In this document: one piece after another, positions 1 through 53,008 of the stretch
Layout: each line of letters starts with the position of its first letter
Position numbering within the stretch: position 1 is the stretch's first letter
Assembly (NCBI GenBank): GCA_937951615.1
Contig: CALFBH010000046.1
Location: 1 to 54,166 of the forward strand
Reading direction: 5' to 3'
Length of the DNA: 54,166 nucleotides
From: an uncultured Saprospiraceae bacterium
Lineage (GTDB): Bacteria; Bacteroidota; Bacteroidia; Chitinophagales; Saprospiraceae
Translations under genes and position numbers: made by a program
The notes under the pieces: generated by a model
Seen by the model: the letters and a program-made list of their open reading frames with translations, nothing else
Databases searched by the model: none
What the model was told of the DNA's origin: nothing

Positions 1-141
1 AGACGAAGGATTTGATTAAAATTAGTGGTTTGTCCCTGGAAATATGCTGTATTTTCAACTGAATTCGTCTGACGACAACGGAATTTGCTCAACGATGCTT
101 TGATAGAACACGACTAAAATTTTGATGCGTTTGCCCTGCTG
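1..141. repeat. Intergenic inverted-arm element, copy 1 (left end cut by window)
   Basis: Positions 1-141 match 38466-38606 with five substitutions and no gaps. The right arm TTCGTCTGACGAC is at 64-76; the last seven bases of the left arm (AGACGAA) are at 1-7, and the 56-nt spacer is 8-63. The rest of the left arm lies outside the window. The element ends just upstream of the toxin-antitoxin-like pair. Confidence 0.85.
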
Positions 142-3713: not shown

Positions 3714-3806
3714 GAACGTGTTGGAACTTCTCTGTTTACCTGCTCGGCAATATCTTTCATTGAGGTAGAATTTAAACCATTTTAAGTTGAAATAAGTTAT
3801 AATGGG

Positions 3807-3900
3807 TAGATTTAGCAATTTATAAATAAGCAAAAGTTGCTAAAAGGTATTATCTTTGAGTAGATTTAGCAATTTATAAATAAATGAAAGTTGCTAAAAG
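3807..3900 (+). promoter_or_regulatory. Duplicated dyad operator flanking a -7 promoter
   Basis: Two copies of TTTAGCAA-N18-TTGCTAAA occur at 3811-3844 and 3865-3898, exactly 54 bp apart, within a longer direct repeat (3807-3829 and 3861-3883). The promoter-like TATCTTTG (3851-3858) lies between them, so transcription would start near 3864 inside the second dyad. The arrangement resembles an autoregulatory operator pair for the ATPase gene starting at 3933. Confidence 0.6.
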
Positions 3901-11405: not shown

Positions 11406-11411
11406 GTGAAT

Positions 11412-14222
11412 ATGATAGAACATAATGCCAGCTTAAAAGCACTTAAAGCTCAATTATTATCTTTGAAAGGTGAAAGACGGCTTACATGTTTGTCCGAAAT
11501 ACTTGATAAGAATAAAATTGGTAATAATGACATTGATATAGAGCAAGGCTATGTCGATGAGATGATTCAATTGGCGAAACAGTATGATCAAAAAGATAAA
11601 CTGGCATGGGCTTATCTGCATCAGGCTGAAATTCACAGATTAAAAGCAAACTCGACAGCTTGTTTTGAAAATACTGAAAAAGCACTTCAAATTAGTCGAC
11701 AAATTGCTCACCCTATACTGCTCACGCACACGTTAAAATTTCTTGGATTTTACCATTCATTATTCCATAACGATTACGATAAAGCAAAGGAATGTTACGA
11801 GGAAACACTTAAGCTAGCCCAAACGCACAAGCTTCAGCTTTACGAAGCCCGTATTTTTAATGATATGGGAGCGACTTTTTTGGGAGAAGAGAAACAGTAT
11901 AAAGCGAGAATCTTTTTTCAAAAAGCAATCAAAGTTTTCAAAAGCATTGATAAAGAGGAATATATTGGAGGCACGCTCAATAATATGGCACTTTTGTATA
12001 ATGACAAACAAAAGGCAGTTGAATTGCTAAATGAGGCTATTCGGATCAATCTAAAATATAGCGAACATGATAGACTTACGATGAGTTATCTATTGATGTC
12101 AGGGGCTTATAAAGAACTTGGGGATAATGAGCAGAGTTTATATTATGCTTTGGCATCAGCAAAAAGTGCCGAGCAAATAAATTCTCCAATGCATAAAGCC
12201 TTGAGTTGGCACCTTTCAGGGCAACAAACGCTTCAAAAAGCTATCTCATCAAAGAGTGGAGTAGATACTCAACTATTAAAAGACGCGGAGAAATGGTCGG
12301 AAAAACTCGAACCACTCGTAGAAAAACTCGGTATAGCGGATTTCAAAGCGAGGTCGTTTTCTCTCAAGGGAAAAATCCAATATCACAAAGGGCAAGCTGA
12401 GCAGGCTTTAGCTAATCTGCATAAAGCAAGTGAGATTGCAAATCATGGAACTTATATAGATAATGGTGTCAAACTCGAAATTGCCAGGTTTTTGCCCCTC
12501 ATTTATGAAAAAATAGAGAAGCCCGGAGAGGCACTTCATTATTTTAAAGCATACCACGAATTAGAAAAAAGACTGACTACTGAAGCGACTCACAAAAATG
12601 TAAAAGAACTCGAAACCCAATTTGAAACCCAGCAAAAAGAAGCAGAGGTGAGTCGCTTGCAGGAATTGGAAAAGATAAAGAATCGCTTCTTCGCTCAAAT
12701 CACGCATGAATTACGTACCCCGCTCACGCTTATCGGGGGGGCTGCTCATCAAATATATGACCTGACAAGTACAAATCCAGGAATACATTATCGCGCCGAC
12801 ATGATAGGGCGCAATACAGAACGAATGTTGCTACTCGTTAATCAACTCCTCGATATAGGAAAACTCGAAGCTGGAAAAATGCCTGTATGGAAAAGTCATG
12901 GTTCGTTTACGCTATTCATCGAAACCATTGTAAATGCCTTTCAGAGTTTGGGAGAACAAGAGGGAATTCAACTCGATTTTGTAAGTGATATGGATGAATT
13001 TATCGCCGACTTTGATACCGATAAAATCGAAAAAATTCTCTATAATCTCCTCTCCAATGCCTTTAAATTTACACCAGCTAAGGGGCGAATTGTCTGCAAT
13101 TTATCTTTTTTTTCTAGCTTGGAAAAACAAAAAATAATTGCGGAAATGAGTGTCTCCGATACTGGAAAAGGCATTCGTGAAGCAGATCAGCCACATATTT
13201 TTGACCGCTTTTATCGGGCGGATGATAGTGACACACGAGAAACTGAAGGAACAGGTATTGGGCTTTCCTTAGCCAAGGAACTCACGCTGCTTATGGGAGG
13301 TACAATAGAAGTGGACTCCACGCTCGGAAAGGGCAGTACTTTTATCGTGACGCTTCCATTGGATTTGATAGAAGGAAACAAACAGCTAAGCGATGGGAAG
13401 CCGATAAAACTCCGGCAGCCGATACCACAACATCAACAAAAACAAAGCTCAGACAAAGCCCAAAAAGCTGAAGATGTCCCAATCTTGTTACTTATAGAAG
13501 ACAATAAGGATATGCACACTTATATTCGCAGCATATTTGAGCAGGATTATATTGTATTGGAAGCTTATGATGGAGAGCAGGGCTTGATGATCGCTGATGA
13601 ACGCATTCCCGACCTCATCATTTGTGACGTAATGATGCCTAAAAAAAACGGCTATGAAGTCTGTCAAGCACTTAAAAGCAATTTCCGTACAGGACATATT
13701 CCTGTGATATTACTTACGGCTAAAGCAGCGCTTAATAGCGAAATTAAAGGCTTGGAACATGGAGCAGATGCCTATATGTCTAAACCATTTAGCCCAGATA
13801 TACTCAGCAAACAAGTCAAGAACCTAATCACACTCCGCAACAAATTGCAAAAAAAATACAGCGAGTCAATATTGAGCGATACTGCCAATGTTAATTTCGA
13901 AAATGAAGATGCTATTTTTTTGAAAAAAACCATACAAATCATTGAAAACAGCCTCATAGATTCCGAATTTAATGTGGAGCATCTTAGTGACGCATTACAT
14001 ATAAGTCGCTCGCAGCTTCACCGAAAATTACGTACATTACTTCACTGCACAGCTTCCGATTTGATTCGACAGACTCGCCTCATTAAAGCCAAAAAAATAC
14101 TCGAAAACAAAGGCGGCAATGTCTCTTCTGTAGCCTACGATGTAGGGTTTAGTAGCCCCAACTACTTCTCTAAAGCCTTTATACGATACTACGGATATAG
14201 CCCAAAATCATTATTGAAGTAA
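11412..14222 (+). CDS. Cytosolic TPR hybrid histidine kinase with response regulator and AraC-type output
   Basis: The 936-residue protein combines all two-component parts in one chain. Residues 1-400 are TPR-like helices. A coiled-coil (THKNVKELETQFETQQKE) leads into HisKA, with the phosphoacceptor His432 in THELRTP. The HATPase follows (N box NLLSNAFKF, G1 DTGKGI, G2 GTGIGL). A receiver domain carries Asp739 in CDVMMP and the Lys of SKPF. Two HTH helices of the AraC family end the protein. No signal peptide or membrane segment is present, so it senses an intracellular signal or partner through the TPRs, unlike the periplasm-sensing hybrid regulators of gut Bacteroides. It lies immediately upstream of the giant secreted protein gene, a possible target. 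ATG 11412 or GTG 11406 could be the start. Confidence 0.92.
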   Translation: MIEHNASLKALKAQLLSLKGERRLTCLSEILDKNKIGNNDIDIEQGYVDEMIQLAKQYDQKDKLAWAYLHQAEIHRLKANSTACFENTEKALQISRQIAHPILLTHTLKFLGFYHSLFHNDYDKAKECYEETLKLAQTHKLQLYEARIFNDMGATFLGEEKQYKARIFFQKAIKVFKSIDKEEYIGGTLNNMALLYNDKQKAVELLNEAIRINLKYSEHDRLTMSYLLMSGAYKELGDNEQSLYYALASAKSAEQINSPMHKALSWHLSGQQTLQKAISSKSGVDTQLLKDAEKWSEKLEPLVEKLGIADFKARSFSLKGKIQYHKGQAEQALANLHKASEIANHGTYIDNGVKLEIARFLPLIYEKIEKPGEALHYFKAYHELEKRLTTEATHKNVKELETQFETQQKEAEVSRLQELEKIKNRFFAQITHELRTPLTLIGGAAHQIYDLTSTNPGIHYRADMIGRNTERMLLLVNQLLDIGKLEAGKMPVWKSHGSFTLFIETIVNAFQSLGEQEGIQLDFVSDMDEFIADFDTDKIEKILYNLLSNAFKFTPAKGRIVCNLSFFSSLEKQKIIAEMSVSDTGKGIREADQPHIFDRFYRADDSDTRETEGTGIGLSLAKELTLLMGGTIEVDSTLGKGSTFIVTLPLDLIEGNKQLSDGKPIKLRQPIPQHQQKQSSDKAQKAEDVPILLLIEDNKDMHTYIRSIFEQDYIVLEAYDGEQGLMIADERIPDLIICDVMMPKKNGYEVCQALKSNFRTGHIPVILLTAKAALNSEIKGLEHGADAYMSKPFSPDILSKQVKNLITLRNKLQKKYSESILSDTANVNFENEDAIFLKKTIQIIENSLIDSEFNVEHLSDALHISRSQLHRKLRTLLHCTASDLIRQTRLIKAKKILENKGGNVSSVAYDVGFSSPNYFSKAFIRYYGYSPKSLLK

Positions 14223-14354: not shown

Positions 14355-14430
14355 CATTAAATAATTTTGTAATGTGAAGTTCTTAAATACAATTGGTATT
14401 TCACAGAACATAAAATTAAATAGCACAGTA

Positions 14431-17400
14431 ATGAGAAATTCACAACAACAACAACAACGCTTTTCTAGTGGTCTACAGCACCTGGAAATTCCGACTGCTT
14501 TTGTAAAAGCAGGACTCACCTATTTGCTCATTTTGTTCTTACCTTTTATTGGACTGAGCCAATATAGCGATTGGATAATGGAGTATGATGATTGTGAAGG
14601 TACAATCACCGTAACGATGAAGGTCGTAGAGACGGCTGGGAACGATGATGATATGGATTGGTTTAAATTATGGCATTCACCTAGTGGTGGTGTAGGATAC
14701 CAATTTTTCCAGTACGACGACAATTATAGTCAGGCTTCAGTAACGGGTTGGACGACTTCATACGTTGGTGAGTTTGATGATGATGCCCATTATGCAAGCC
14801 ATCCGGCTTCGGTATCTTATGTTCTGTCTGGAGAAAATTTAATAATAACATTTAGGAATGCTCCTGATGATGATTTTGGAGCAACCACAACTGTTCGAGC
14901 TTTAGGCTATTGGGAAGGAGATGGAGACCCCGATGTAGATATAAATGATAACAAGACAACCTCAGTCCAATTGGGGGCTGGAAGCCCAAGCCAACTTACT
15001 GCTACAGCAGGTGAATATTGTAGTAAGGTACGCTTGGCCTGGACAAATGACAATATAAGTTGCGATGCCTCAAAAACAAGTACACAGATTCAGAGAAAAT
15101 TAGCATCAGGAAATAATTGGATAAATTTACCGAATCAAAGTATTTCTACTAGTTTTTATGATGATTCAAATATTATCATTGGTTCTGAATATGACTATAG
15201 AATCCGCCATATATTTAGACCAAATCCCTATAGAGTAGATTACTCAAACTGGGTGACCACAAATGTAGCTGGAAGCTCAATCGGCTATCCTGATACGCCT
15301 AATAGTTTAGTGGCAAGTACAGCAAACTGCGACGGCACTATTGATTTATCTTGGGCTTTTGGTCTTGGGGTAGAAAATTATGAAATTTATAATGCAGCGT
15401 ATAGTTTGCTCACTACTTTAGATGGCAATATTACAAATTATACCATAGAAAATGTACCTGCGAATCAAAACCTGACTTATCGCATTCGGGCGAAAAATGA
15501 GTGCAATCGTTATAGTGCTTATGGAAGTGTAACGGGGAGTACTATCGCAGATCCAGCGCCACCTACCGGCTTAGTACTGGCATTGGGTACAGATGGAGAA
15601 AGTGTTGAAGTATCTTGGGATTTGGTGCCTTATGCTTCAGCTTACAGAATTGAACGGACGCTGCTTGGCGGTGGCGGGTCTTTCTTTTTTGATATAAATC
15701 CGTCCAATGCAGGTGCAGCTCCACCTACTGAATATGTAGATACTTCTATATTACCTTGCCAAACCTACGAGTACCGGATTCGGGCAGTCAATGAGTGTTC
15801 GCCAAACGGGATTGTGGGCGGACAGGTAGAAACCATTCAACTCGTTCCCGAGCTTAATAATACCTTTAACACAGCATTCCTTGGAGCTTCGGAGTCTTTG
15901 GTAGGCTCTAAGGGATTTTACCCTAATCGGGTAGAACTGACCTGGGCAGTCGAAAATAATACCAATTTTATCAATGGCTTTAAAATCTATCGCCGACAAC
16001 TTGGCGACCCGAATGACTCCACCGTCATTGCAACTTTAAATGCAGGAAGCAATATTTATGTGGATAATCTGGTCGATGCCGGAGTTTTATACGAGTATTT
16101 TATTACAGCCGAAGCACCCTGTGAAAGTGATGTCTTATATTCTAATGTAAGTAGGACGATAGGCTTTAGAAATCCTTTTGGTACAGTGACCGGAAATGTT
16201 CATTACCTCGGAAACTTTCCTGTAGAAGGAGCGCGGATTACGGCAGAAAGCAGTTCAAACACAGGACAAAGTCTTGAGTTTGATGGAAACAGCCTGCTCC
16301 AAATAGCCCACCAATCCAGCTTAAATGTTAAAGATAGTTTATTACTGGAAACCTGGATACAACCAGATAATTACACGAATGATTTTACCGTAATCAGAAA
16401 ATCAAACGCTTACGATTTAAGCTATTCAGCAGCTGATGATGAATATCTCTTTGAAGTTCAAGATGCTAGCGGGGCATTGGCATTGGCATTTTTTGATGGT
16501 AGTGAATTGCCTACGGGGGATTTCAGCCATCTTGCCGCTCAATTCTATCAGGACACACTGCGCTTATTTGTCAATGGAGCATTAAAAGCAAGTACAGCTG
16601 CGGCATATATAAACGATATCGCTGACTCGCCTACAGATGTAGAAATAGGAATTGGTTTTACAGGTATTTTGGACGAAGTACGTATCTGGAATAGAGGAAA
16701 AACCAATGAAGAAATTCAACTGGATCATTCTAGAATTATGATTGGAAATGAGCCGGGGCTGAAAGCTTATCTCCGTATGGACGAGGGACTGCCTAGTAAT
16801 TTTAGTTACGATATTTCCAAGGGACCTAATAGTTATAATGGCAATCATGCTCGACTTGTAAATGATGTAGCATGGAGTACGACTACCCCGACAAATGCTC
16901 AACTTGGTGTTATCGCTTATACTGGGCAAAATGGTAGTTATACAATGGATATACCTTATAGTGGTATAGGAGAAGTCTTTACACTCACGCCAGCTTTTCT
17001 TAGTCATGCGCCTTTTATCCCGCCAAATGAAGCTTTATATATTGGAGACGGTTCTTTTATTCACAATAATGTGGATTTTCTGGACGAGTCTTCTTTTTCC
17101 GTATCAGGTACGGTGTTTTATGCAGCACCTTTTAATAATTGCCCAGTAGGAGGTGCTTCTTTCAGAATAGATGGAAACATAGTGACGGATCCCAGCGGAC
17201 AACCCGTGGTGACGAATAATCTAGGCGTGTATGAGATACGAGTACCTATAGGCGACCATTGGATAGAAGTGGAAAAAAACGGGCATGTTTTTTCGGTTGG
17301 GCGCTTTCCTGAAACAGGCAATTATAATTTTCAAGCGCCATTAGCAGATATTGATTTTACAGACAGTACGCTAATCAAAGTCGTGGGAAGAGTCGTAGGC

Positions 17401-20400
17401 GGGCTGCGCGAAGCGCAAAAAGTACCAGGCATGGGCAGGTCGAAAAACAATATAGGACAGGCGCAGGTCGTCTTAGCATCACAACTCGGCAATGGATGTG
17501 CAACAGCTACCATTATTACCGACCAAACTACAGGAGAATATGAAAGCTATCTGCCTCCTTTGAAATATGTGCCTAGCGTGGATATTCTTTCCAATCCAGC
17601 AATTGATTTTGGAACTTTAAATCTTGTTGATTTATCGGCTCCTTTACCAGAACAAACCATCATTGATACTCTTTTGGCAATCAATTATCTCGGTGGGGAT
17701 TCTATTGTCAGTATCGACACAGCGATGTTTCATTTAAACCTGCCTTATACTTACAGAGTACCAGCACCGACCCTTATCGTAAAAGATGATAATGGCGTAG
17801 ATGACTTTGTTGGAGATACAACTTATGCCTACATCAACTCAGTGACAGGCGATACGACAAGCGTAGATCTGCGCAGCACCCCTTTCAATATGCCCATCTT
17901 TCACCAGGGCGATGATAAGTTTTTCTATAATTGCAAAATTGTAATTTTTGAAGAATATACGAACCTAGATGGCGGAGTCGGACAAGAAGTAAGAGATAGT
18001 GTCCCCACAACAGATGGCATACTAAGAATCAATAATGAACTATCTCACGCTCCAGTATTTAATGTTGATTTGTCGAAAGCGGGCTTGTCTATAGATACAT
18101 TGGAAGCAATCCGATATAAATTCAAACCAGGAATACCTAGTTTCTTAGAAAATCTGAACAATCCAGAATACAGTTTTACGAAAACATTTGTACTTGAATT
18201 GGAAACAAGTTCAGGGCAAGTAATCGCCTGGGATCCACCTGGACCGCAAACGGTCTTTCGAGGTATTTTATTGGGCGGACATTCTGTGAGTAGTGGTCAT
18301 CTGACTTCAGGTCCGCAAATCGTAGATTATGTATTGCGAGATCCACCAGGCAGCAATAGCTCTGCGACAAGAGAATCCGGAACGACAACAACAGAAAACC
18401 GATCCTGGAGCTGGAATCTTGGCGGGGCACTACATGTTGAAAATAAAATAAAATTAGGGACAGCGTTTTCAACAGGACTGGGCGTATCAACGGAAACAAC
18501 ATTTGTGAATAACATATCTACTGGAATTGAGACAGAAATCAGTGGTGGAAATAGTGGTACACAGGCTTATTCTGATGTGACCACACAGTCCTGGACGACA
18601 AATCAAGGGACAGATCAGGTAGGCGCAGGCAGCGACCGATTTATAGCACAGGCGTTCAATGTAGAAGTAGGCAAAGCGAGCTATCTTACGCTTGTACCCA
18701 ATACTATTTGTGCTGATGTAGAATGTATAGGAATGATGGGCATCGGCAATGGATTTAATCCAGCAAAAACGGTGAGTGTTGCCGTTGTGCCGGGTGGTTA
18801 TGAAACTAAAGTTATTTATAACCAAAATCAGATCGTTAATTATCTGATTCCTGGTTTATTGGAAGGCAGAAATGGTATTTTACAATCCGATCCCAGATAC
18901 ACGTCTAATTTACCAACAAGTGACCCTAATTATGGGCTAAATAATGATGATCCAGTTTTTGGAGCATCAGTCTCCTCTGCCGATTCTACGCTGACAGAAG
19001 CAACGGACACAACTGGACTAAGTTATACATTCATATCTACAGGAGCTTTTGAAACCGATACCGTAAGGTGGTTAAATGACCAAGTAAGAATATGGAAAGA
19101 CGCACTGAAACTCAATGAATGGGAAAAAGTGAATATTGGTAAGGAGTCGGTCATAGATAGCTTAAAGACAATAGAGCTGGAAAAATTAGACGAAGAATAT
19201 TCAGGGGTAGAAGCGGCTTATCTTGCCATTGGCGTAACTGGTGGAATTGTATCTACCGTAACCACCCTAGCTGCTAATGCGCTCATACCAGGGCCAGGAA
19301 CGGCAATTGTAGGTTATGCAGCTTTTGCCACGACATCAATAACGGGCATTGCCACCACAGAACTTTACGAAGAATATCAAGCCTATCAAATAGAAAAACA
19401 GCGATTAGAAGATAAATTTGCAGCACTTGGAACACCGGTAAATCGTTCTTTTAATGGTGCTGACGGGCCGTATACCAATACGATTACCCACGATAAATCA
19501 GTGACCCGAAATCATTCTTATAATGTGAATATGTCCGCAGGACTGGCATTCGAAGTCGCAGCGGATATTGGAGGAGCAGGGGCTGGATTTACAAATGGAC
19601 TCAAACTCAATTTCTCACAGGAAAGAGATTGGGGACATGAAACCACCAATACAGAAAGCATAAGTTATACTTTGGAAGATGCTGATCAAGGAGACTTCTA
19701 TTCTGTAGATGTATATCCTTCTATGTTGGGCTGGGGACCCGTATTCAAAGTCCGTGCAGGTGGACAAACTTCCTGCCCACATGAGCTAGCTGATTCCACT
19801 AATTATTATGTAAATAATGGAACACCTTATGAACTCAATGCAGCTACGCTACAAAGACAAAAACCAAGCATCAGTTCTGCACAGACCTTTATCACAAATG
19901 TTCCGACAGCCGAAGCAGCAGTCTTCAACCTCACGCTTGGCAATGAATCGGAAAGCGGAGATCCACAGATATATGATGTACACATTTCCAGTATTAGCAA
20001 CCCCGATGGAGCGATTGTACGCATTGATGGGCTGGCAACGACCTCGGTATCCATACCTGGCGGTGCTGCTGTAAATAAAGTACTGACCGTAGAGAAAGGT
20101 CCCGGACCCGTTTATAATTACGATAGCCTGCTGCTGGTCATCTATCCGCCTTGTCAATATGAAGCAGGTTCTACCGATAATGTGGATATAGGCGACTCAC
20201 TTTATATCTCGGCACATTTTCTGCCAAGTTGCACAGAAGTTGCGCTGGCAAGTCCTGAAGACCAGTGGGTGCTGAATAATGCTTTCAATGACACGATGCC
20301 CGTTGCTATAGTAGATTATAATATCAATTTCTTTGATTTTGAAAAAATGCGCTTCGATTATAAGCCTTCCAATGAACCCAACTGGATTGGTCTGCAAACA

Positions 20401-23400
20401 TTTTGGAGAGACACGGCAGGACTAAATGATCCCACTCTTGTGGAAATTCCGTCGGGGACACCCTTTACACTCTACGACTGGGATGCCGCCCAGCTTGTTG
20501 ATGGAGAATACGACCTGAGGGTCACCACCCAATGTGCGCTAGTAGATAATTTTTCACAAACTTATAGCGGCGTGATGGATAGAATAAATCCACATCCTTT
20601 TGGCAACCCAACACCAGCAGATGGTATTCTCGATCCAAATGATGAGATTTCCATCAAATTTAATGAACCGATTGACTTAGGCTCACTGACCTCCATGAAT
20701 TTTGACATTCGAGGCGTACTCAACGGAACGCCTACGAATCATTATACCAGCCTTTATTTCGACGGACTGGATGATTATGTGGAAGTGACCGGAGGCGCAG
20801 CACTGCAAAACAGAGACTTTACCATTGAGTTTGCCGTCAGGCGTAATACAACTGGAGAAGAAGCAATTATGAGTCAGGGAACCGACCCTTCCGAGCATCT
20901 TTTTATTGGCTTTAATGCTAATAATCAACTGCTGTTCAGAATTGGAGCAGAAGAAGCCATTTCTACGACAACTTTTGCAGATAATGACTGGCATAATTTC
21001 GCGATTAGTTATAATTATGACAATGAAACCGTCGAAATGTTCCTCGCTGGTGGAAATACGACACCGCAAATCATTAATACAGGAAGCACGACAATTTACA
21101 CAGATTATAAAGGAGCAGGCAAGTTGTTTATAGGTAAAAATTCTTCTAATAACGGCAATTTCTTTAATGGAAATCTGCACGATATCAGAGTCTGGAGCGA
21201 ATCAAGAAGCCTGTCTGATTTTAGTACGAATTTAAATCGACTACTCGGAAATGAACTGGGGCTGCTCTATAACTGGCGCATGGATGAAGCGGAAGGTGAC
21301 CTCCTCGTGGATCATGTCAGAAGGAGAGATGGAACAAATCAGGGCGCAAGCTGGCAGATTGACCCTTCTGGTTTTGCTGCATCTTTTGATGGCGCGGATG
21401 ACTACCTCGACGTATTCACAGGTGATGTGAATATTACGGAAGAAATGGACTTCACGCTGGAGTTTTGGTTCAATTCTACACAAGCAGGAGCGGCTACCTT
21501 ATTCTCAAATGGAACAGGGGATGGACTAGAAGTAGATTCTCTGACGTCCTGGAATATTAATAAAGATGCCCTCGGACAAATACATGTTAAACATTACGGA
21601 CTGGATTTTATCGCTGTTACAGATGATTATTTTGATGGCGAATGGCATCATTTTGCAATCGTCTTACAACGGAGCGGAAACCTATCGGCTTATATAGATG
21701 GCAATTTCCAAAACTCGACGCAGGCACTTCCTTACCAAGAGCTTGGTGGAAGCAATATGTATCTAGGTGCACGAGCTTATCAGCTAGGTGTTAATCCTTT
21801 TTCTGTCTCCAATTATTTCGATGGCGAACTGGATGAATTTCGCTTTTGGAATACCGCCAGAAAAGTAGAACAAATTAAGCGTGATAAGCAAAATCGGATG
21901 AAAGCCGATGAGCTTGGACTGGAAATTTATCTGCCTTTCGAAGATTACCAACTCGACCCAACTGGTATCCCGATTCTTACTGCATCATTTAATGAACAGA
22001 TTGACCCAGTCATTCATATAGTGACGAATCCCAACGGCATACAGAATGTAGGACAGACACCAACGATTAAAATACAACGCCCGGTAGGAGGGATTGCATT
22101 TACCTATTCGGTCAATGGAGATGAAATTATCTTCACACCAACCACCTCACAAGAGTTGATAGAAAATGTCACCTTGGATATTACGGTAGATGGCGTGAAA
22201 GACCTGCAAGGCAATGTGATGGCTTCGCCCAAAACATGGATTGCTTATATCAATAAAAATCAGGTCTTATGGCAGGATGAGTCCTTACAGTTTGATATGG
22301 AATCTGGAGAGACATTGACGTTCAACTCAGGTATTATCAATGAAGGTGGTGCAGCAAAAGCTTTTGAAATATTGAATATCCCCGACTGGCTGACGGTCAG
22401 CCCCTCTTCCGGTACGATTGCACCGAATAGTAGCATAAGTGTAGATTTTGAAGTAGATCCACTAGTCAGTATTGGCGATTATGTGGAAGACCTGCAACTG
22501 ATGACGGATTTCAATTATCCAGAACGATTGACCATCAACCTGAAGGTCAGATCGGAAGAACCAGCATGGTCTATAGACCCAATTGATTTCCAATATTCTA
22601 TGGGTATTATCGGTCTGCTGGAAATTCAGAATGTGGTGTCCTCAGATACCGAAGACAAACTCGCCGCCTTTGTAGATGGTGAGCTTCGGGGCACACAATA
22701 TTTGCAATATATTCCACAGGCTGATGCTTATCTCGTCTTTATGGACGTGTACGGCAATGAAGCTTCAGGAGAATCGCTGAGCTTCCAGATTTGGGATGCT
22801 AGCGCAGGAATTGTTTACTCGGAAATAGAACCGACCTTAATGCCTTTTGTCTCCGATACGCTGATAGGTAGCACGGATATACCCGAGATATTTAAAACCA
22901 ATTACGAAATTGCACACAGCATACCAGTATATCAGGGCTGGAACTGGATCAGCGACTTCCTGTATAATGTGGATTCAACCAACCTGGATCTTACACTGGA
23001 AAGTCTAAGTCCAACAACAGGCGATGAGTTGAAAGGACAGTATGAATATTCCGACTTTTCTCTAGCGAATGGCTGGACAGGAGCACTCAACGAGGCGGGT
23101 ATCCGACCAGAGCAGTTGTACAAATTGAAAGTCAGTGCAGATGATCTGCTTGTACTCAAAGGAAATGTCATCAATCCAACAGAAAGAACCATCAGCCTGG
23201 TGGATAACTGGAACTGGATTGGATTCATCTCCGTCAGAAACCAGCCACTAGAACAGGCACTCGGAAACCTGAACGCAATAGAAGGCGACCTGATAAAAGG
23301 ACAGGCTGAGTTTGCGGTATATGATGATTCATGGGGCTGGATTGGTAGTCTGGAAACAATGATTCCCGGCAGAGGATATATGTACAATTCTATTGGTAAT

Positions 23401-24102
23401 AAGTCATTTGTTTACCCGATTGCAGGTTACTTCAATAAGCTAACAACAGAAACAGAGGACCCAGATAACGGATTCTGGACAGTCGAATATGGAGAGTATA
23501 CTTCCAATATGACCGCGATTATTTCGGTGAACAGCCTTTGTGAAAACGACTTACCTGCTGGAGAATTTTCTATCGGTTTGTTTGATGAATTTGGACGCAT
23601 CAGAAGTTTGGCGGACATCAATGACTTTGAAGGCAATGTCGCTTCTTTCCTAACCATCGCAGGTAGTACGGGGGAGGTTTTGACCCCTCGTATTCTGAAT
23701 ATGGAAACAGGGGAAGAGTTTGGCATCAATAGCAGTATTGAGTACGCATCGGATGCACATATTGGAAGCTTGGATGATCCTTATAAAATCAATATTTCGG
23801 GTGCAGCCTGTCAGTTACTAGAAGGTCCAATGCCTGAAGGACAAACCTTTGCTGTTTATCCTTCTTTATTTGAAAATGAAATTACGGTACACTACATGTC
23901 ACCTGCCGTGGACGAACAGGCTTCTATTCGCTTGTTTAATTCTATCGGACAATTGGTGTTTAGTACCGAATTGAAAGTCGAAAAAGGAGATAATAAACTT
24001 CAACTGGATTTCTCGAAAGAAAAGCTAAGTCCGGGCGTTTATTTGCTCGAATTGAATGCAAACGACGAGAAAGGAACGGTAAAAGTGATGAAAGGATTAT
24101 AA
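14431..24102 (+). CDS. Giant secreted LamG/FN3 protein with T9SS type A sorting domain
   Basis: About 3,223 residues from ATG 14431 (GTG 14374 would add 19). A signal segment (YLLILFLPFIGLSQ) is followed by FN3-like repeats, a LamG-like jellyroll (about 613-780), carboxypeptidase-regulatory-like modules, and two Thr/Ser-rich beta modules (about 1313-1420 and 1655-1785). The beta modules flank a hydrophobic stretch at about 1594-1645. Two more LamG-like domains follow (2107-2280 and 2318-2507), then a BACON-like domain (about 2636-2709), a W-x-P module (2711-2830) also found in the next gene, two GWNW repeats, and a type A sorting domain (about 3136-3223). The protein is exported by T9SS and probably anchored at the surface; adhesion or carbohydrate binding is inferred from LamG and FN3. 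It starts the secretion block. Confidence 0.9.
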   Translation: MRNSQQQQQRFSSGLQHLEIPTAFVKAGLTYLLILFLPFIGLSQYSDWIMEYDDCEGTITVTMKVVETAGNDDDMDWFKLWHSPSGGVGYQFFQYDDNYSQASVTGWTTSYVGEFDDDAHYASHPASVSYVLSGENLIITFRNAPDDDFGATTTVRALGYWEGDGDPDVDINDNKTTSVQLGAGSPSQLTATAGEYCSKVRLAWTNDNISCDASKTSTQIQRKLASGNNWINLPNQSISTSFYDDSNIIIGSEYDYRIRHIFRPNPYRVDYSNWVTTNVAGSSIGYPDTPNSLVASTANCDGTIDLSWAFGLGVENYEIYNAAYSLLTTLDGNITNYTIENVPANQNLTYRIRAKNECNRYSAYGSVTGSTIADPAPPTGLVLALGTDGESVEVSWDLVPYASAYRIERTLLGGGGSFFFDINPSNAGAAPPTEYVDTSILPCQTYEYRIRAVNECSPNGIVGGQVETIQLVPELNNTFNTAFLGASESLVGSKGFYPNRVELTWAVENNTNFINGFKIYRRQLGDPNDSTVIATLNAGSNIYVDNLVDAGVLYEYFITAEAPCESDVLYSNVSRTIGFRNPFGTVTGNVHYLGNFPVEGARITAESSSNTGQSLEFDGNSLLQIAHQSSLNVKDSLLLETWIQPDNYTNDFTVIRKSNAYDLSYSAADDEYLFEVQDASGALALAFFDGSELPTGDFSHLAAQFYQDTLRLFVNGALKASTAAAYINDIADSPTDVEIGIGFTGILDEVRIWNRGKTNEEIQLDHSRIMIGNEPGLKAYLRMDEGLPSNFSYDISKGPNSYNGNHARLVNDVAWSTTTPTNAQLGVIAYTGQNGSYTMDIPYSGIGEVFTLTPAFLSHAPFIPPNEALYIGDGSFIHNNVDFLDESSFSVSGTVFYAAPFNNCPVGGASFRIDGNIVTDPSGQPVVTNNLGVYEIRVPIGDHWIEVEKNGHVFSVGRFPETGNYNFQAPLADIDFTDSTLIKVVGRVVGGLREAQKVPGMGRSKNNIGQAQVVLASQLGNGCATATIITDQTTGEYESYLPPLKYVPSVDILSNPAIDFGTLNLVDLSAPLPEQTIIDTLLAINYLGGDSIVSIDTAMFHLNLPYTYRVPAPTLIVKDDNGVDDFVGDTTYAYINSVTGDTTSVDLRSTPFNMPIFHQGDDKFFYNCKIVIFEEYTNLDGGVGQEVRDSVPTTDGILRINNELSHAPVFNVDLSKAGLSIDTLEAIRYKFKPGIPSFLENLNNPEYSFTKTFVLELETSSGQVIAWDPPGPQTVFRGILLGGHSVSSGHLTSGPQIVDYVLRDPPGSNSSATRESGTTTTENRSWSWNLGGALHVENKIKLGTAFSTGLGVSTETTFVNNISTGIETEISGGNSGTQAYSDVTTQSWTTNQGTDQVGAGSDRFIAQAFNVEVGKASYLTLVPNTICADVECIGMMGIGNGFNPAKTVSVAVVPGGYETKVIYNQNQIVNYLIPGLLEGRNGILQSDPRYTSNLPTSDPNYGLNNDDPVFGASVSSADSTLTEATDTTGLSYTFISTGAFETDTVRWLNDQVRIWKDALKLNEWEKVNIGKESVIDSLKTIELEKLDEEYSGVEAAYLAIGVTGGIVSTVTTLAANALIPGPGTAIVGYAAFATTSITGIATTELYEEYQAYQIEKQRLEDKFAALGTPVNRSFNGADGPYTNTITHDKSVTRNHSYNVNMSAGLAFEVAADIGGAGAGFTNGLKLNFSQERDWGHETTNTESISYTLEDADQGDFYSVDVYPSMLGWGPVFKVRAGGQTSCPHELADSTNYYVNNGTPYELNAATLQRQKPSISSAQTFITNVPTAEAAVFNLTLGNESESGDPQIYDVHISSISNPDGAIVRIDGLATTSVSIPGGAAVNKVLTVEKGPGPVYNYDSLLLVIYPPCQYEAGSTDNVDIGDSLYISAHFLPSCTEVALASPEDQWVLNNAFNDTMPVAIVDYNINFFDFEKMRFDYKPSNEPNWIGLQTFWRDTAGLNDPTLVEIPSGTPFTLYDWDAAQLVDGEYDLRVTTQCALVDNFSQTYSGVMDRINPHPFGNPTPADGILDPNDEISIKFNEPIDLGSLTSMNFDIRGVLNGTPTNHYTSLYFDGLDDYVEVTGGAALQNRDFTIEFAVRRNTTGEEAIMSQGTDPSEHLFIGFNANNQLLFRIGAEEAISTTTFADNDWHNFAISYNYDNETVEMFLAGGNTTPQIINTGSTTIYTDYKGAGKLFIGKNSSNNGNFFNGNLHDIRVWSESRSLSDFSTNLNRLLGNELGLLYNWRMDEAEGDLLVDHVRRRDGTNQGASWQIDPSGFAASFDGADDYLDVFTGDVNITEEMDFTLEFWFNSTQAGAATLFSNGTGDGLEVDSLTSWNINKDALGQIHVKHYGLDFIAVTDDYFDGEWHHFAIVLQRSGNLSAYIDGNFQNSTQALPYQELGGSNMYLGARAYQLGVNPFSVSNYFDGELDEFRFWNTARKVEQIKRDKQNRMKADELGLEIYLPFEDYQLDPTGIPILTASFNEQIDPVIHIVTNPNGIQNVGQTPTIKIQRPVGGIAFTYSVNGDEIIFTPTTSQELIENVTLDITVDGVKDLQGNVMASPKTWIAYINKNQVLWQDESLQFDMESGETLTFNSGIINEGGAAKAFEILNIPDWLTVSPSSGTIAPNSSISVDFEVDPLVSIGDYVEDLQLMTDFNYPERLTINLKVRSEEPAWSIDPIDFQYSMGIIGLLEIQNVVSSDTEDKLAAFVDGELRGTQYLQYIPQADAYLVFMDVYGNEASGESLSFQIWDASAGIVYSEIEPTLMPFVSDTLIGSTDIPEIFKTNYEIAHSIPVYQGWNWISDFLYNVDSTNLDLTLESLSPTTGDELKGQYEYSDFSLANGWTGALNEAGIRPEQLYKLKVSADDLLVLKGNVINPTERTISLVDNWNWIGFISVRNQPLEQALGNLNAIEGDLIKGQAEFAVYDDSWGWIGSLETMIPGRGYMYNSIGNKSFVYPIAGYFNKLTTETEDPDNGFWTVEYGEYTSNMTAIISVNSLCENDLPAGEFSIGLFDEFGRIRSLADINDFEGNVASFLTIAGSTGEVLTPRILNMETGEEFGINSSIEYASDAHIGSLDDPYKINISGAACQLLEGPMPEGQTFAVYPSLFENEITVHYMSPAVDEQASIRLFNSIGQLVFSTELKVEKGDNKLQLDFSKEKLSPGVYLLELNANDEKGTVKVMKGL

Positions 24103-27536: not shown

Positions 27537-27552
27537 TTAAGTTGATTAGGTG

Positions 27553-27597
27553 ATTAAGTTATTGAGTGTATTAAGTAACTAAACTCAATAACTTAAT
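27553..27597. repeat. 14-bp inverted repeat made of ATTAAGTTATTGAG units
   Basis: ATTAAGTTATTGAG (27553-27566) pairs perfectly with CTCAATAACTTAAT (27584-27597), loop 17 nt. Further CTCAATAACT copies continue to about 27620. It separates the second type B gene from porP/sprF. Confidence 0.8.
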
Positions 27598-27640
27598 TAA
27601 CTCAATAACTCAATCAACTCAATTTACAAAAAGATTCACT

Positions 27641-35904: not shown

Positions 35905-37032
35905 ATGAAAAAAAATTACTTATTAGTTTTTGCTATTTGTCTATTATGCCAACACGTTCAGGCGCAAAGCATCAATAAAAGCTTCACCTATGATGGACAA
36001 ACAAGAGAATACATCATGTATTTACCTGCTGGATACACCCCTTCCGCCCAGATGCCGCTGTTATTATGCCTACACGGACTAGGAGATACGCCAGCAAATT
36101 TTCAGGGAGTAGGTTTTGATGCTATCGCCGATTTGGAAGGTTTTATCCCTGTTTATCCGGCTGCATTGGGTTCCTTTCTGGGAAATGCCTGGAATAGTGG
36201 TACGCCACTGAATACCACAGTGGATGATGTAGGTTTTTTATCGACTTTAATTGATTCGATGGTTGTCAATTATAATGTTGATCCAAGTCGGGTTTATTCT
36301 ACTGGTTTTTCTATGGGTGGGATTATGAGCAACCGCTTAGGTTGCGAATTGTCTGACAAAATAGCTGCTATCGCATCAGGTTCAGGAACAATAGCGATAG
36401 GAGTAGGCGATAATTGTAATCCATCGCGCAAAGTGCCAATGTTGCATGTACACGGCACAGATGATGGTACAGTTCCTTATGCTGGCTCTAGTACTTATGG
36501 ACTAAAATCAGTCGATGAAACGATTGCTTTATGGCAGCAACTCAATGGGAGTCCGGCAACAGCAGATTATACCATGCTACCAGATATTGCCAATGACGGC
36601 ATCACAGTAGAACGCTTTGATTACGGTAACTGCTCCGATCCTAGTGAAGTGGTGCTATACAAAGCCACCGGAATGGCACATAGCTGGATGTTTATCCCTA
36701 ATAATGACATGCATCAAAGTCTGGTCATCTGGGATTTTCTAAGTTGCCACAGCCTCTTGCCTACCAATATCGAAGGAACAATCAGCAGTATAGATATAGC
36801 GCTTTTTCCCAATCCGGTAAACGCTGATTTGCATATCCAATTTAGCCAGCCACAAAGCGGAACAGTACAGATTTTTGATGCCTTAGGGCAATCGGTACTC
36901 AGTCCACGTCCATTTGCAGAGACGAGCAATATTGATTTACCTGTACAAGACTTGGCGGATGGCGTATATTTTTTGACTGTATTTACAGGAAACGATTCAC
37001 ACAGCCGAATTTTTGTCAAGTCTGCTTATTAG
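35905..37032 (+). CDS. Secreted PHB depolymerase/feruloyl-esterase-type esterase with T9SS type A domain
   Basis: The 375-residue protein has a signal peptide ending QAQS, then an alpha/beta-hydrolase of the LpqC/CE1 type. It has the oxyanion region LLCLHGLGDTP, nucleophile Ser136 in TGFSMGG, Asp in HVHGTDDGTVPY and His in GMAHSWM. The last 75 residues (LFPNPVNADLHIQF, YFLTVFTG, IFVKSAY) are a T9SS type A sorting domain, so the enzyme is secreted or displayed. Substrates in this fold range from polyhydroxybutyrate to feruloyl or acetyl esters on polysaccharides; the exact one cannot be read from the sequence. Confidence 0.88.
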   Translation: MKKNYLLVFAICLLCQHVQAQSINKSFTYDGQTREYIMYLPAGYTPSAQMPLLLCLHGLGDTPANFQGVGFDAIADLEGFIPVYPAALGSFLGNAWNSGTPLNTTVDDVGFLSTLIDSMVVNYNVDPSRVYSTGFSMGGIMSNRLGCELSDKIAAIASGSGTIAIGVGDNCNPSRKVPMLHVHGTDDGTVPYAGSSTYGLKSVDETIALWQQLNGSPATADYTMLPDIANDGITVERFDYGNCSDPSEVVLYKATGMAHSWMFIPNNDMHQSLVIWDFLSCHSLLPTNIEGTISSIDIALFPNPVNADLHIQFSQPQSGTVQIFDALGQSVLSPRPFAETSNIDLPVQDLADGVYFLTVFTGNDSHSRIFVKSAY

Positions 37033-37057
37033 GTGGGTTCGAGTAAAGTATGGAATA

Positions 37058-37139
37058 GTCGCAAGGCGAATGTTTTTATAAAACTCTGGTGTTAGATTGT
37101 CCAATCCTGCACTTTCAATAGAAGAATTCGCCTTGCGAC
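37058..37139. repeat. Inverted-arm element, copy 2
   Basis: GTCGCAAGGCGAA (37058-37070) and TTCGCCTTGCGAC (37127-37139) pair perfectly over 13 bp, spacer exactly 56 nt. The flanks resemble copy 4: TATGGAATA before the left arm and CCGACTTTA about 20 bp after the right arm. The core CAAGG differs from the other copies, but pairing is kept. Confidence 0.85.
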
Positions 37140-37211
37140 TCTTGCGCTGCATTTATCCGACTTTAGCCTAACACTACCGCTTATTAGGGTTAGACTTTTT
37201 ATTACAACATT

Positions 37212-38273
37212 ATGAAATTACTCAAAATACTTCTGCTGCCCCTCCTTATTTTACTGGCTTACCTACTGTTTTATCCTGTACCCATCAAGCCGGGAACATG
37301 GACGCCACCCACGCCACCTGCCCTGACGGGAGATTACGCGCCTAATGATAAACTGGCTGCCATTCAGCATGTTTTTGATGGCGATTGTAAACATTGTGAA
37401 GATGTAGCCGTGGACAGTGCCGGCGTGATTTATGGCGGCAGTGAAAATGGAGATATTATTCGTATGACAGCAGATGGAAAGTCTATGGTTTTGGCAAATA
37501 CAGGGGGACGCCCACTTGGTTTGCATATTGACAAGGATAAAAATATACTGGTGGCGGATGCGGTCAAAGGGCTATTATCCGTTTCACCGCAGGGGGAAAT
37601 TAGAGTACTGGCAACAGAGTATGGCGGCTTGCCTTTTTTGTTTACAGATGATTTGGAAACAGGAAGTGATGGAATGATTTATTTCTCTGATGCTTCACAT
37701 CGCTTTGGTTTTGAAGATTATAAACTTGATTTATTTGAACATCAGCCCAATGGAAGATTACTTGCCTATAATCCAGAAACAAAAAAGACTAGCTTATTAT
37801 TAGATGGACTTTATTTTGCAAATGGTGTCGCAGTCAGCCCCGACAATTCATTTGTATTGGTCAATGAAACTGGAAAATATCGGGTCACTCGCTACTGGCT
37901 GACGGGTGAAAAACAAGGCACATCAGAAGTATTTATTGATAATCTGCCGGGCTTTCCGGATGGTATTTCGGCAGGTAAGGACGGCATTTTCTGGTTGACA
38001 CTAATCTCGCCCCGCACAACAGCTCTTGATGATATTCTGGATAAACCTTTTCTACGAAAAATAGTAGTCAGGTTACCTGATGGACTACAACCTGCACCAG
38101 AACATTATGGCTTTATCTTAGGTTTGGATGCGGATGGTAAAATTGTGTATAATCTGCAAGATCCGAAAGGCGGCTTTGCACAAATTGCCAGCGTTCAGCA
38201 GTTTGGAGATAGCTTGTATTTTGGTTCGCTTGGAGCAGAGGATGCAGTCGGAATTTTGAAATTGACGGACTGA
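37212..38273 (+). CDS. APMAP/strictosidine synthase-like six-bladed propeller protein
   Basis: The 353-residue protein has an N-terminal signal anchor (LLKILLLPLLILLAYLLF) and a periplasmic-facing beta-propeller. VAVDSAGVIYGGSENGDI, IYFSDASHRF, GRLLAYNP, FANGVAVSPDNSFVLV and ENLPGFPDGISA-like strings are the blade motifs of the SMP-30/strictosidine synthase-like (APMAP) family, which includes lactonases and arylesterases that often bind calcium. There is no Pictet-Spenglerase signature, so strictosidine synthesis is not implied. The gene is bracketed by inverted-arm elements: copy 2 upstream, copies 3 and 4 downstream. It is not part of an obvious operon. Confidence 0.85.
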   Translation: MKLLKILLLPLLILLAYLLFYPVPIKPGTWTPPTPPALTGDYAPNDKLAAIQHVFDGDCKHCEDVAVDSAGVIYGGSENGDIIRMTADGKSMVLANTGGRPLGLHIDKDKNILVADAVKGLLSVSPQGEIRVLATEYGGLPFLFTDDLETGSDGMIYFSDASHRFGFEDYKLDLFEHQPNGRLLAYNPETKKTSLLLDGLYFANGVAVSPDNSFVLVNETGKYRVTRYWLTGEKQGTSEVFIDNLPGFPDGISAGKDGIFWLTLISPRTTALDDILDKPFLRKIVVRLPDGLQPAPEHYGFILGLDADGKIVYNLQDPKGGFAQIASVQQFGDSLYFGSLGAEDAVGILKLTD

Positions 38274-38321
38274 TTTTCACTGTTTCACTAGGGCAAACGC
38301 ATCAAATTAAAAAGCAACCTA

Positions 38322-38404
38322 GTCGTCTGACGATTCAATTTATTCAGGAGTTCATCATCCTGAAAATCATCATACGTGTGGATAAGCAACCATCGTCAGC
38401 CGAC
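38322..38404. repeat. Inverted-arm element, copy 3
   Basis: GTCGTCTGACGAT (38322-38334) pairs with ATCGTCAGCCGAC (38392-38404), 12 of 13 bp, spacer 57 nt. Inside, TTCAGGA (38343-38349) pairs with TCCTGAA (38358-38364), so the spacer carries a nested hairpin. Confidence 0.8.
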
Positions 38405-38459
38405 TTTTCTTCTTCATTTTCCAAATTTAAATTTAATGCGGTGTTCAAAGTATGAAATA

Positions 38460-38606
38460 GTCGGCAGACGAAGGATTTGATTAAAAAAAGTGGTTTGTCC
38501 CCGGAAATATGCTGTATTTTCAACTGAATTCGTCTGACGACAACGGAATTTGCTCAACGATGCTTTGATAGAACACGACTAAAATTTGGATGCGTTTACC
38601 CTGCTG
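38460..38606. repeat. Inverted-arm element, copy 4, with conserved right flank
   Basis: GTCGGCAGACGAA (38460-38472) pairs with TTCGTCTGACGAC (38529-38541), 12 of 13 bp, spacer 56 nt. From 38466 to 38606 the sequence matches 1-141 of the window with five substitutions, so this copy and copy 1 were duplicated recently, including 65 bp beyond the right arm. Confidence 0.85.
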
Positions 38607-38613
38607 TTTCACT

Positions 38614-38740
38614 GTTTTTTTTTGCGTAGCAAAAAAAAACAACCATCGAACAATGCAGCAATGAAACCATCGAACAATGAAACCATCTAGCGAAACCATG
38701 AAACAATGCAGCAATGAAACCATCTAGGCAATCGAACAAT
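38614..38740. repeat. Perfect T-tract hairpin followed by GAAACCATC/GAACAATG array
   Basis: GTTTTTTTTTGC-GTA-GCAAAAAAAAAC (38614-38640) is a perfect 12-bp hairpin with a 3-nt loop. It is followed by about 100 bp of short interspersed units (GAAACCATC, GAACAATG, GCAGCAAT). Layout matches 9241 and 39949. Confidence 0.8.
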
Positions 38741-38743
38741 GAA

Positions 38744-39160
38744 TTAAAGTCCGCCTCGTCCCTCGCCTAATGGCGTTCTTGCGTTCTTAATTTCTTCCAG
38801 GTATTTTCTGAACATTTTGTATTGAGTCTGATCTAACAACTCATTGATTTCTTTGTCTTGCTCAACTCTTAGTGCAGACATAGCCGTTTTCATAGCCCCT
38901 TTATCGTCCTGATGCTCCTTACGCGCAGCCCTTATTTTTTGACGATATTTAGCCTTCATTTCTTCGTAAATAGCCATTTGATCGCCTGTGAGTTCTACCT
39001 TTTTCATGGCTTGATCTATGTACGTTTGCATATTTCCTGGTCGTGGAGCTTGTGTTTGTGTCGTTTCTTCTTGCATATCTTCGGAAACGGTTTTTGTTCC
39101 GCTACAGGCAAAAAGCAGAAAGCTGACAGAGATTAAGGTGAAATAAAGAAACTTGGACAT
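38744..39160 (-). CDS. Lipoprotein with LTxxQ-like helical domain
   Basis: The 138-residue product has a lipobox FLLFAC (Cys19), so it is a lipoprotein. The mature part is helical and charged (LTGDQMAIYEEMKAKYRQKIRA, EINELLDQTQYKMFRKYLEE), with spacing like Spy/CpxP-type LTxxQ stress proteins; the match is weak. It starts 7 bp after the stop of the upstream lipoprotein gene and shares with it the post-lipobox string SGTKxVS, so the two form an operon and may be related by partial duplication. No metal-binding or catalytic motif is visible. Function is unknown, and an envelope-stress role is only suggested by the fold. Confidence 0.65.
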   Translation of the reverse strand: MSKFLYFTLISVSFLLFACSGTKTVSEDMQEETTQTQAPRPGNMQTYIDQAMKKVELTGDQMAIYEEMKAKYRQKIRAARKEHQDDKGAMKTAMSALRVEQDKEINELLDQTQYKMFRKYLEEIKNARTPLGEGRGGL

Positions 39161-43577: not shown

Positions 43578-43610
43578 GTTTTTTAAACACGTTCTAAATC
43601 CCATATCCCT

Positions 43611-43649
43611 GCGGGAGGGGCGTCCTTCAGGATAAGAGGCGTGGGAGGG
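43611..43649. repeat. GC-rich dispersed repeat, copy 2
   Basis: GCGGGAGGGGCGTCCTTCAG and GATAAGAGGCGTGGGAGGG match 52655-52694 and, less well, 7525-7563. A TTTAAACACGTTCT motif (reverse of AGAACGTGTTTAAA) precedes it at 43582-43595. Confidence 0.8.
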
Positions 43650-43677
43650 CAATACTAAATCTGCTCAAATCCAAGTT

Positions 43678-52628: not shown

Positions 52629-53008
52629 AAAACGATTCGACCGAATGTATTTATGCGGGAGTGGCTTCCTTCAGGATAAGAGGTGCGGGAGGGGCAAAAA
52701 AAATAAGGCATTCCACCGAAGTGGAACACCTTTCTCTACTTAAGCACTCATGAAGCCTCTTGTGTGCATTATTTGAGGATGATGAATAATGCAACGTATC
52801 ATTTTTTGGCAATCATTTCTCAATGTTGATTGATTGGATTGTCCGTGTATTTTTTATATTTGTGTTTTTTGAATACGGAAAAATAGTACTAACATTTAAT
52901 TCTTAATTTCCTGTACTCATAATTTGAGACGGGACAGGTTTGGAAAGTCACGAAACTAGAGAGGTAAAAAAGTAATTGCAAGAGAAAAAGAGTTTAATTT
53001 ATTGATTA
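52629..53008. other. Gene-free region with GC-rich repeat and hairpins
   Basis: This 380-bp stretch has the GC-rich dispersed repeat (52655-52694), TTCCAC-CGAA-GTGGAA (about 52712-52727), GCATTATT/AATAATGC (52766-52792) and a TATATTTG at about 52855-52862 on the plus strand with no gene after it. I see no coding sequence. Confidence 0.6.
52655..52694. repeat. GC-rich dispersed repeat, copy 3
   Basis: GCGGGAGTGGCTTCCTTCAG and GATAAGAGGTGCGGGAGGGG closely match 43611-43649, and share the TTCCTT(C/T)AGGATA core with 7525-7563. Confidence 0.8.

Follow-up and report, generated by a model that had tools for sequence, protein, structure and literature searches.

A hairpin core shared by miniature transposable elements with unrelated ends in an uncultured Saprospiraceae bacterium

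The hairpins described here are probably the internal core of non-autonomous MITEs (miniature inverted-repeat transposable elements) of one Saprospiraceae genus, a module separate from the ends of these elements and one whose arms would be kept either for their pairing or as matched sites. The two elements that carry the core in the DNA we analyzed, M1 and M2, are MITEs by their structure, and the core is common to at least three shells (M1, M2 and one with ends GGCTAYCCGTCTAACTTTGCC) whose ends are unrelated.

Hairpin cores and the elements that carry them

The window, by which we mean the whole stretch of 54,166 nt that was analyzed, is the entire contig C46 of its genome (G000). The pattern GTCG-N5-CGA followed by TCG-N5-CGAC has three exact places in it and none in 100 shuffles, and the three complete hairpins are not due to chance. 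They are 82, 83 and 82 nt long, with spacers of 56, 57 and 56 nt and arms that pair at 13, 12 and 12 of 13 positions. The first-pass annotation had described four such elements, and all four are real: three are complete, and the other (1-76) is cut by the contig start, which falls 6 nt into its left arm and leaves 7 nt of that arm visible. The window start is 96.5% identical to 38466-38606 across 141 bp, and elements 1 and 4 are therefore copies of one larger repeat. The features of the window that concern us are as follows.

1..138, forward strand: right part of a second M1 copy, truncated by the contig end and similar to 38466-38606
37024..37031, no strand assigned: left target duplication of M2, GCTTATTA, 8 bp, repeated exactly at 37179-37186
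37032..37178, forward strand: M2-type MITE of 147 bp, ends GGTGGGTTCGAGTAAAGTATG / ACTTTAGCCTAACACTACC, holding the C-type core
37058..37139, forward strand: C-type hairpin core, arms GTCGCAAGGCGAA / TTCGCCTTGCGAC, 56-nt spacer, a match to the pattern
37179..37186, no strand assigned: right target duplication of M2, GCTTATTA, 8 bp, an exact repeat of 37024-37031
38280..38288, no strand assigned: left target duplication of M1, CTGTTTCAC, 9 bp, repeated exactly at 38604-38612
38289..38603, forward strand: M1-type MITE of 315 bp, ends TAGGGCAAACGCATC / GATGCGTTTACCCTG, with two cores inside
38322..38404, reverse strand: B-type hairpin core within M1, reversed relative to the A-type core
38460..38541, forward strand: A-type hairpin core within M1, inside a degenerate M2 unit
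38604..38612, no strand assigned: right target duplication of M1, CTGTTTCAC, 9 bp, an exact repeat of 38280-38288

M1 has ends of the type YAGGGCAAACGCATC, and its two cores face opposite ways. Allowing one mismatch, its end motif is found 78 times in the own genome, 41 times forward and 37 times reverse, against 2 and 2 for the reversed control. For twelve of the 78 the distance to a contig start is 116-127 bases, which is what a break of the assembly within the repeat would produce. Among 14 elements of 161-315 bp with M1-type ends, 10 are flanked by a duplication of 8-11 bases, a count made without shuffle control, and the core lies inside eight and is absent from six, which makes it an optional passenger of the M1 shell.

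M2 elements have GGTRGTGTTCGAYTAAAGTATG-like ends and a typical length of about 148 bp. The window copy went into the TAG stop codon with which an esterase-like gene ends at 37032, leaving the codon intact. Of 40 rows with two recognisable ends, 28 have an 8-bp duplication with no more than one mismatch; because L050 and L065 each appear once per strand, this amounts to 27 of 38 distinct elements, and with shuffled partners the rate is 3.9%. With at most three mismatches the M2 end occurs at 90 places in the own genome, 44 forward and 46 reverse, and its reversed control at 5 and 6. A scan of a genome contig collection, from which records near the window's genome were perhaps excluded, gave 16 stretches with this end, 15 of them labelled Saprospiraceae and one Gammaproteobacteria.

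Both M1 and M2 thus show what defines a MITE, namely terminal inverted repeats with a target duplication in a short, multi-copy element that lacks a transposase gene. Judged from these ends and duplications, their insertion would be due to transposases working in trans at the outer ends, and their movement can be explained without any recognition of structure. The earlier suggestion of a mobile unit recognised by its structure therefore stands as to mobility, which the target duplications record; the hairpin is not the entire element, and the outer ends can account for M1 and M2.

Several further features lie along the window. Adjoining the cut M1 copy, positions 174-928 hold a 102-aa ORF, unmatched in Pfam and NCBIfam, and a 149-aa PIN-domain protein whose start it overlaps, a pair resembling a putative VapBC toxin-antitoxin system with VapC matches below the NCBIfam cut-offs; a Fic/DOC-domain protein with DUF4172 at its N-terminus is encoded at 1050-2153. 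A 3242-aa ORF (14374-24102) combines laminin-G-like domains with a Por secretion tail, and upstream of it 11406-14222 encodes a hybrid histidine kinase that also has an AraC-type domain. Repeats of other kinds comprise a 44-bp direct repeat of 91% identity (3803-3846 and 3857-3900), an imperfect AT-rich palindrome of about 77-80 bp (27540-27623) and a 44-bp repeat of 88.6% identity around CCTTCAGGATAAGAGG (43610-43652 and 52654-52697). Next to M1, a T-run/A-run hairpin (38613-38641) stands ahead of degenerate ACCATCGAACAATG / AACCATC repeats (38641-38745). Elsewhere in the genome there is a GTCGATG-type 7-bp satellite with a GAGTGCC hairpin, at several places near contig ends.

Shells and distribution of the core

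Besides M1 and M2, the core sits in the third shell at L300 and at L163/L189 (one place), and this shell is cut or degenerate at L256 and L314; no target duplication was found at the GGCTAYCCGTCTAACTTTGCC loci inspected. L118 has a possible fourth shell, AATTCTACTTTGGCACTTT, on both sides, and L085 has it on one. L182 carries, from position 1353, a short coreless hairpin whose ends GGCTATCCGATTAAGTTTGTCC are M3-like and whose small central palindrome is CTCGC-CAA-GCGAG.

Further copies had been expected, and the pattern is indeed spread across the own genome and present in all six genus genomes searched with it. A stricter form of the pattern occurs, forward and reverse, at 69 and 64 places in the own genome, which still include some of the GTCGATG-type satellite, and at 8 and 8 in G001, 3 and 3 in G002, 23 and 23 in G003, 29 and 29 in G004 and 6 and 6 in G005. 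The 122 own-genome places given by the first pattern include that unrelated satellite and are not a copy number. Of 34 other relatives searched, only G016 and G018 matched the pattern, each once and on a single strand, which is the level of the reversed control. The covariance-model scan that had been proposed was run on 150 family genomes with strict filters and no more than 30 candidates scored per genome. It recovered cores in G000, G001 and G005 among the genomes listed, which do not include G002, G003 and G004, and gave one weak match in G019 (E 8.8e-4), which was inspected and judged to be chance.

The fixed spacing claimed for the hairpins was borne out by a nearly constant core length. 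Where 71-90 nt were permitted, 117 cores differing in genome or sequence were obtained, of which 68 are 82 nt long, 21 are 83 nt, 13 are 81 nt and the remainder 78-80 or 84 nt; this set comes from loci L001-L196 and the window, is part of all places, and includes L088 twice and nine B-type cores. Two or three cores stand in tandem at L079, L084, L086, L139 and L146. Among 80 cores whose gene neighbours could be classified, 18 lie between convergent, 16 between divergent and 46 between tandem genes (16 more were unclear); orientation relative to genes looks random, and the terminator-like placement that we considered was not borne out.

Conservation and pairing of the arms

The arms are better conserved than the spacer. 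In G003, where the flanks are unrelated (24 rows for 23 cores, L088 being read twice), the mean pairwise identity is 0.89 and 0.88 for the two N5 blocks, which lie outside the search pattern, 0.52 for the spacer, 0.38 and 0.35 for the 10 bases adjoining the core and 0.28-0.29 for the outer flanks. The G004 values, from 25 of 30 rows kept, are 0.85 and 0.86 for the N5 blocks and 0.58 for the spacer. Ortholog pairs keep most of their 26 arm bases: 26 in L122/L078, 24 in L088/L145, 24 in L112/L300, 26 in L085/L128 and 25 in L107/L294, where about 247 nt separate the arms in G002. Pooling L122/L078, L088/L145 and L112/L300 gives 74 of 78 aligned bases for the arms, 111 of 163 for the spacer and 211 of 269 for the flanks; L085/L128 is little informative because its spacer is identical at 55 of 56 positions. 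Arm conservation is partly built into these figures, since the copies, and two of the three pooled pairs, were located through fixed arm bases. The two pairs found by their flanks alone (L112/L300 and L107/L294) keep 49 of 52 arm bases, with p 0.0005 against the L112/L300 spacer and 0.07 against its flanks. From these alignments constraint on the arms is well supported relative to the spacer and only suggestive relative to the nearest flanks.

Two alignments bear on the earlier claim that the arms vary yet still pair. The first, A1, has 54 rows after removal of near-duplicates and contains neither the B-type cores nor L088 as read in reverse. In it the 13 arm pairs are standard in 93.3% of cells, and changes on both sides number 29 against 6.4 in shuffles; the pairs with both-side changes number four, a value reached by 94 of 500 shuffles and so not above them. 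Arm position 5 is unpaired in 36 of the 54 rows (31 G.A, 4 G.G and 1 T.C), and a position so commonly mismatched means that perfect pairing is not the conserved feature. The second, A2, consists of 40 rows hand-picked to show the subfamilies, including GTTG/CAAC and CTCG/CGAG, and its percentages come from a non-random sample. Pairing is kept in 94.6% of its 520 cells, with 47 both-side cells against 13.9 in shuffles, and both-side changes affect 7 of 13 pairs (arm positions 1, 3, 5, 6, 7, 9 and 13), a number reached by 3 of 500 shuffles. In this sense the claim was upheld, with the reservation that the shuffle tests ignore the relatedness of the copies and overstate covariation. Palindromy within each arm was tried as the kept feature and rejected, at 87.5% paired and two both-side pairs against seven arm-to-arm, a comparison that favours matching from arm to arm.

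Transposase partners, related repeats and alternative readings

No autonomous element sharing the MITE ends was found among the matches listed in a near-exact end search of draft genomes, and M1 and M2 are accordingly filed as MITEs on their structure. The ISAs1 family was set aside as a partner of M1, PF13808 not having been found in the own genome. For M2, the end sequence and the duplication length suggest that it was moved by an IS1-family transposase. IS1-family elements of the same order have target duplications of 8-9 bp and ends like GGTAGTGT; M2 resembles them in its GGTAGTG-like ends and a duplication in that range but encodes no transposase. Across the order, 40 of 396 genomes match the IS1 profile PF03400; within the genus G005 matches it and G002 has a fragment, and it was not found in the own genome, G001, G003 or G004. 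Six of 31 IS1 loci (L217-L247) were candidates by ends and duplication, five of them (L217, L226, L230, L237 and L240) with an exact 8-9 bp duplication and GGYDGTG ends and one (L229) weak; as the script demanded GG[TC] at both ends, agreement counts only past those letters. The IS1 element of G005 starts with GGTAGTGTTAC, has the duplication AATTTTTC and encodes a transposase matching NF033558 (IS1) at 202 bits against an NCBIfam cut-off of 100. The full M2 end was on none of the 31 IS1 loci scanned, and for that reason we say that M2 resembles IS1 and do not file it as a member. Ten of the 16 M2-end stretches are M2 copies. In the remaining six no good partner lies within 3 kb of the end; a candidate with three mismatches is present at 415 bp in L257. 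Of 13 ORFs of at least about 100 aa inward of the six unpartnered ends, 10 were scanned and none is a transposase.

A transposase gene beside a copy, which the first-pass annotation had proposed to look for, was not encountered: Pfam identified no transposase among 11 window proteins, and no core lies by a Y1 transposase in the 17 Y1_Tnp loci from four of the six genomes. A loose arm pattern occurs in two of these loci, neither instance resembling a core arm, and the Y1_Tnp profile has no match in G001 and G004, which carry the core. A RAYT/REPIN origin was rejected on the lack of core arms near the 17 loci, 13 of which were also searched with the model and held no core.

The annotation knew no named element with this pattern. 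Our literature search of open-licence PMC papers likewise gave no description of this repeat family, but its kind, a MITE with an internal palindrome, is known. Correia/NEMIS, ERIC and Bcr1 are short, gene-less, intergenic and hairpin-forming, with terminal inverted repeats and a target duplication. M1 and M2 share all of these traits and differ in that one hairpin module is common to unrelated shells and its arms outlast the shell. All three families are bacterial MITEs with internal stem-loops and are named in PMC3733652. In anatomy the core is a REPIN-like inverted doublet: it shares with REPINs (PMC3116915) short conserved arms, a less conserved spacer and dispersal between genes. It fails the defining RAYT test, with no adjoining RAYT gene found; it also differs in lacking a GTAG tag and in being nested in MITEs with target duplications. 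CGTC-tagged REPs, which PMC3733652 reports from Bacteroidetes among other phyla, resemble it in forming opposed dimers without a dedicated transposase, sometimes within longer palindromes. Their stems measure 8-9 bp and their loops 4-5 nt, and they carry a CCA-like tail. Core arms, with an internal palindrome of at most 5 bp and no constant CGTC tag, do not fit this definition of stem, loop, tag and tail as given there, and membership was rejected.

A rival account makes the core itself mobile, a REPIN-like doublet moved by a hairpin-recognising enzyme that prefers palindrome centres, hence the unrelated shells. The same core within shells of unrelated ends would be expected of it, and REP dimers within longer palindromes (PMC3733652) offer a precedent. 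M2 ends are also mostly unrecognised around G003 cores: a score of at least 11, which some shuffles reach (largest 10-13 by genome), was obtained for the left end in 3 of 24 rows and for the right in 0 of 24, compared with 10 of 30 and 6 of 30 in G004. We compared the flanks of eight G003 loci with G004, G002 and G005 to find empty sites. L111 is empty in G002 and G004, with the G003 junction exactly at the right arm and a 16-bp direct repeat, and L123 is empty in both, with G003 roughly 240-300 bp longer and the junction at most 8 nt from the right arm. An aligned G005 sequence lacks the core of L083; L112 is filled in G004 and unrecognisable in G002; L107 is filled in G002, the G004 match spanning one flank only; L124 and L125 each matched by one flank, and no match is listed for L118. 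The L111 and L123 junctions may hint at core-related mobility, at too few sites to decide, and the left boundary at both differs from the left arm. Direct repeats of at least nine bases occur at the right arm in 6 of 72 rows and at the left in 3 of 72, and the controls gave 1.5% and 2.4%. Of the six at the right arm, however, five sit in multi-core loci (L084 twice, L086, L139 and L146). Since decay of the outer ends would equally yield shell-less copies, and no Y1 transposase lies by a core at the 17 loci, we consider this account distinctly unlikely.

That the core works at the RNA level, as a hairpin affecting the stability, processing or termination of transcripts from adjacent genes, seems more improbable still. 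All three window cores give stable RNA folds on both strands (z -2.4 to -6.8), the C-type core at 37058-37139 reaching z = -6.8 on its own strand and -5.1 on the opposite strand; arm changes preserve pairing, and no open frame of at least 70 codons crosses 21 of the 23 cores in G003. Against this stand the near-random orientation of neighbouring genes, unlike that of 3'-end elements, the recurrent G.A mismatch, and a search of the whole window with Rfam at gathering score that returned tRNA only and no family for the hairpins. It is possible, if on balance doubtful, that a host protein or a transposase binds the arms as a pair of matched sites, in which case the likeness of the arms and not base pairing would be conserved: each subfamily has one shared arm sequence, as in other inverted repeats, and many arms are near-palindromic, but positions 1 and 3 change in step between the arms and not within an arm, and within-arm symmetry is thus not kept. 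On these sequences, matched sites and pairing are hard to separate. In the reading that we prefer, a core internal to MITEs, the 82-nt core is a separate module that also persists in copies without a recognisable shell; the property kept would be either the pairing of one arm with the other, in a hairpin or cruciform, or a pair of matched sites for binding, and the core would act on the DNA level and not as a mature RNA. We regard as unlikely the stronger proposal that the core is an independent unit, recognised by its paired arms, that enters or is recruited to palindromic MITE centres, is selected after the shell decays and is served by an undescribed enzyme.

The mobility of these elements is ordinary; the shared and constrained interior is unusual. 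MITEs are usually held together by their ends, with an interior free to drift, and here the interior is common to unrelated ends and its arms change in step. For the own genome, M1 repeats account for a number of contig breaks. More widely, the finding bears on the spread of palindromic repeats that lack a transposase, such as the CGTC REPs. Two possibilities can be put to the test here, a hairpin parasite nested in other parasites or a structural part needed by several transposons.
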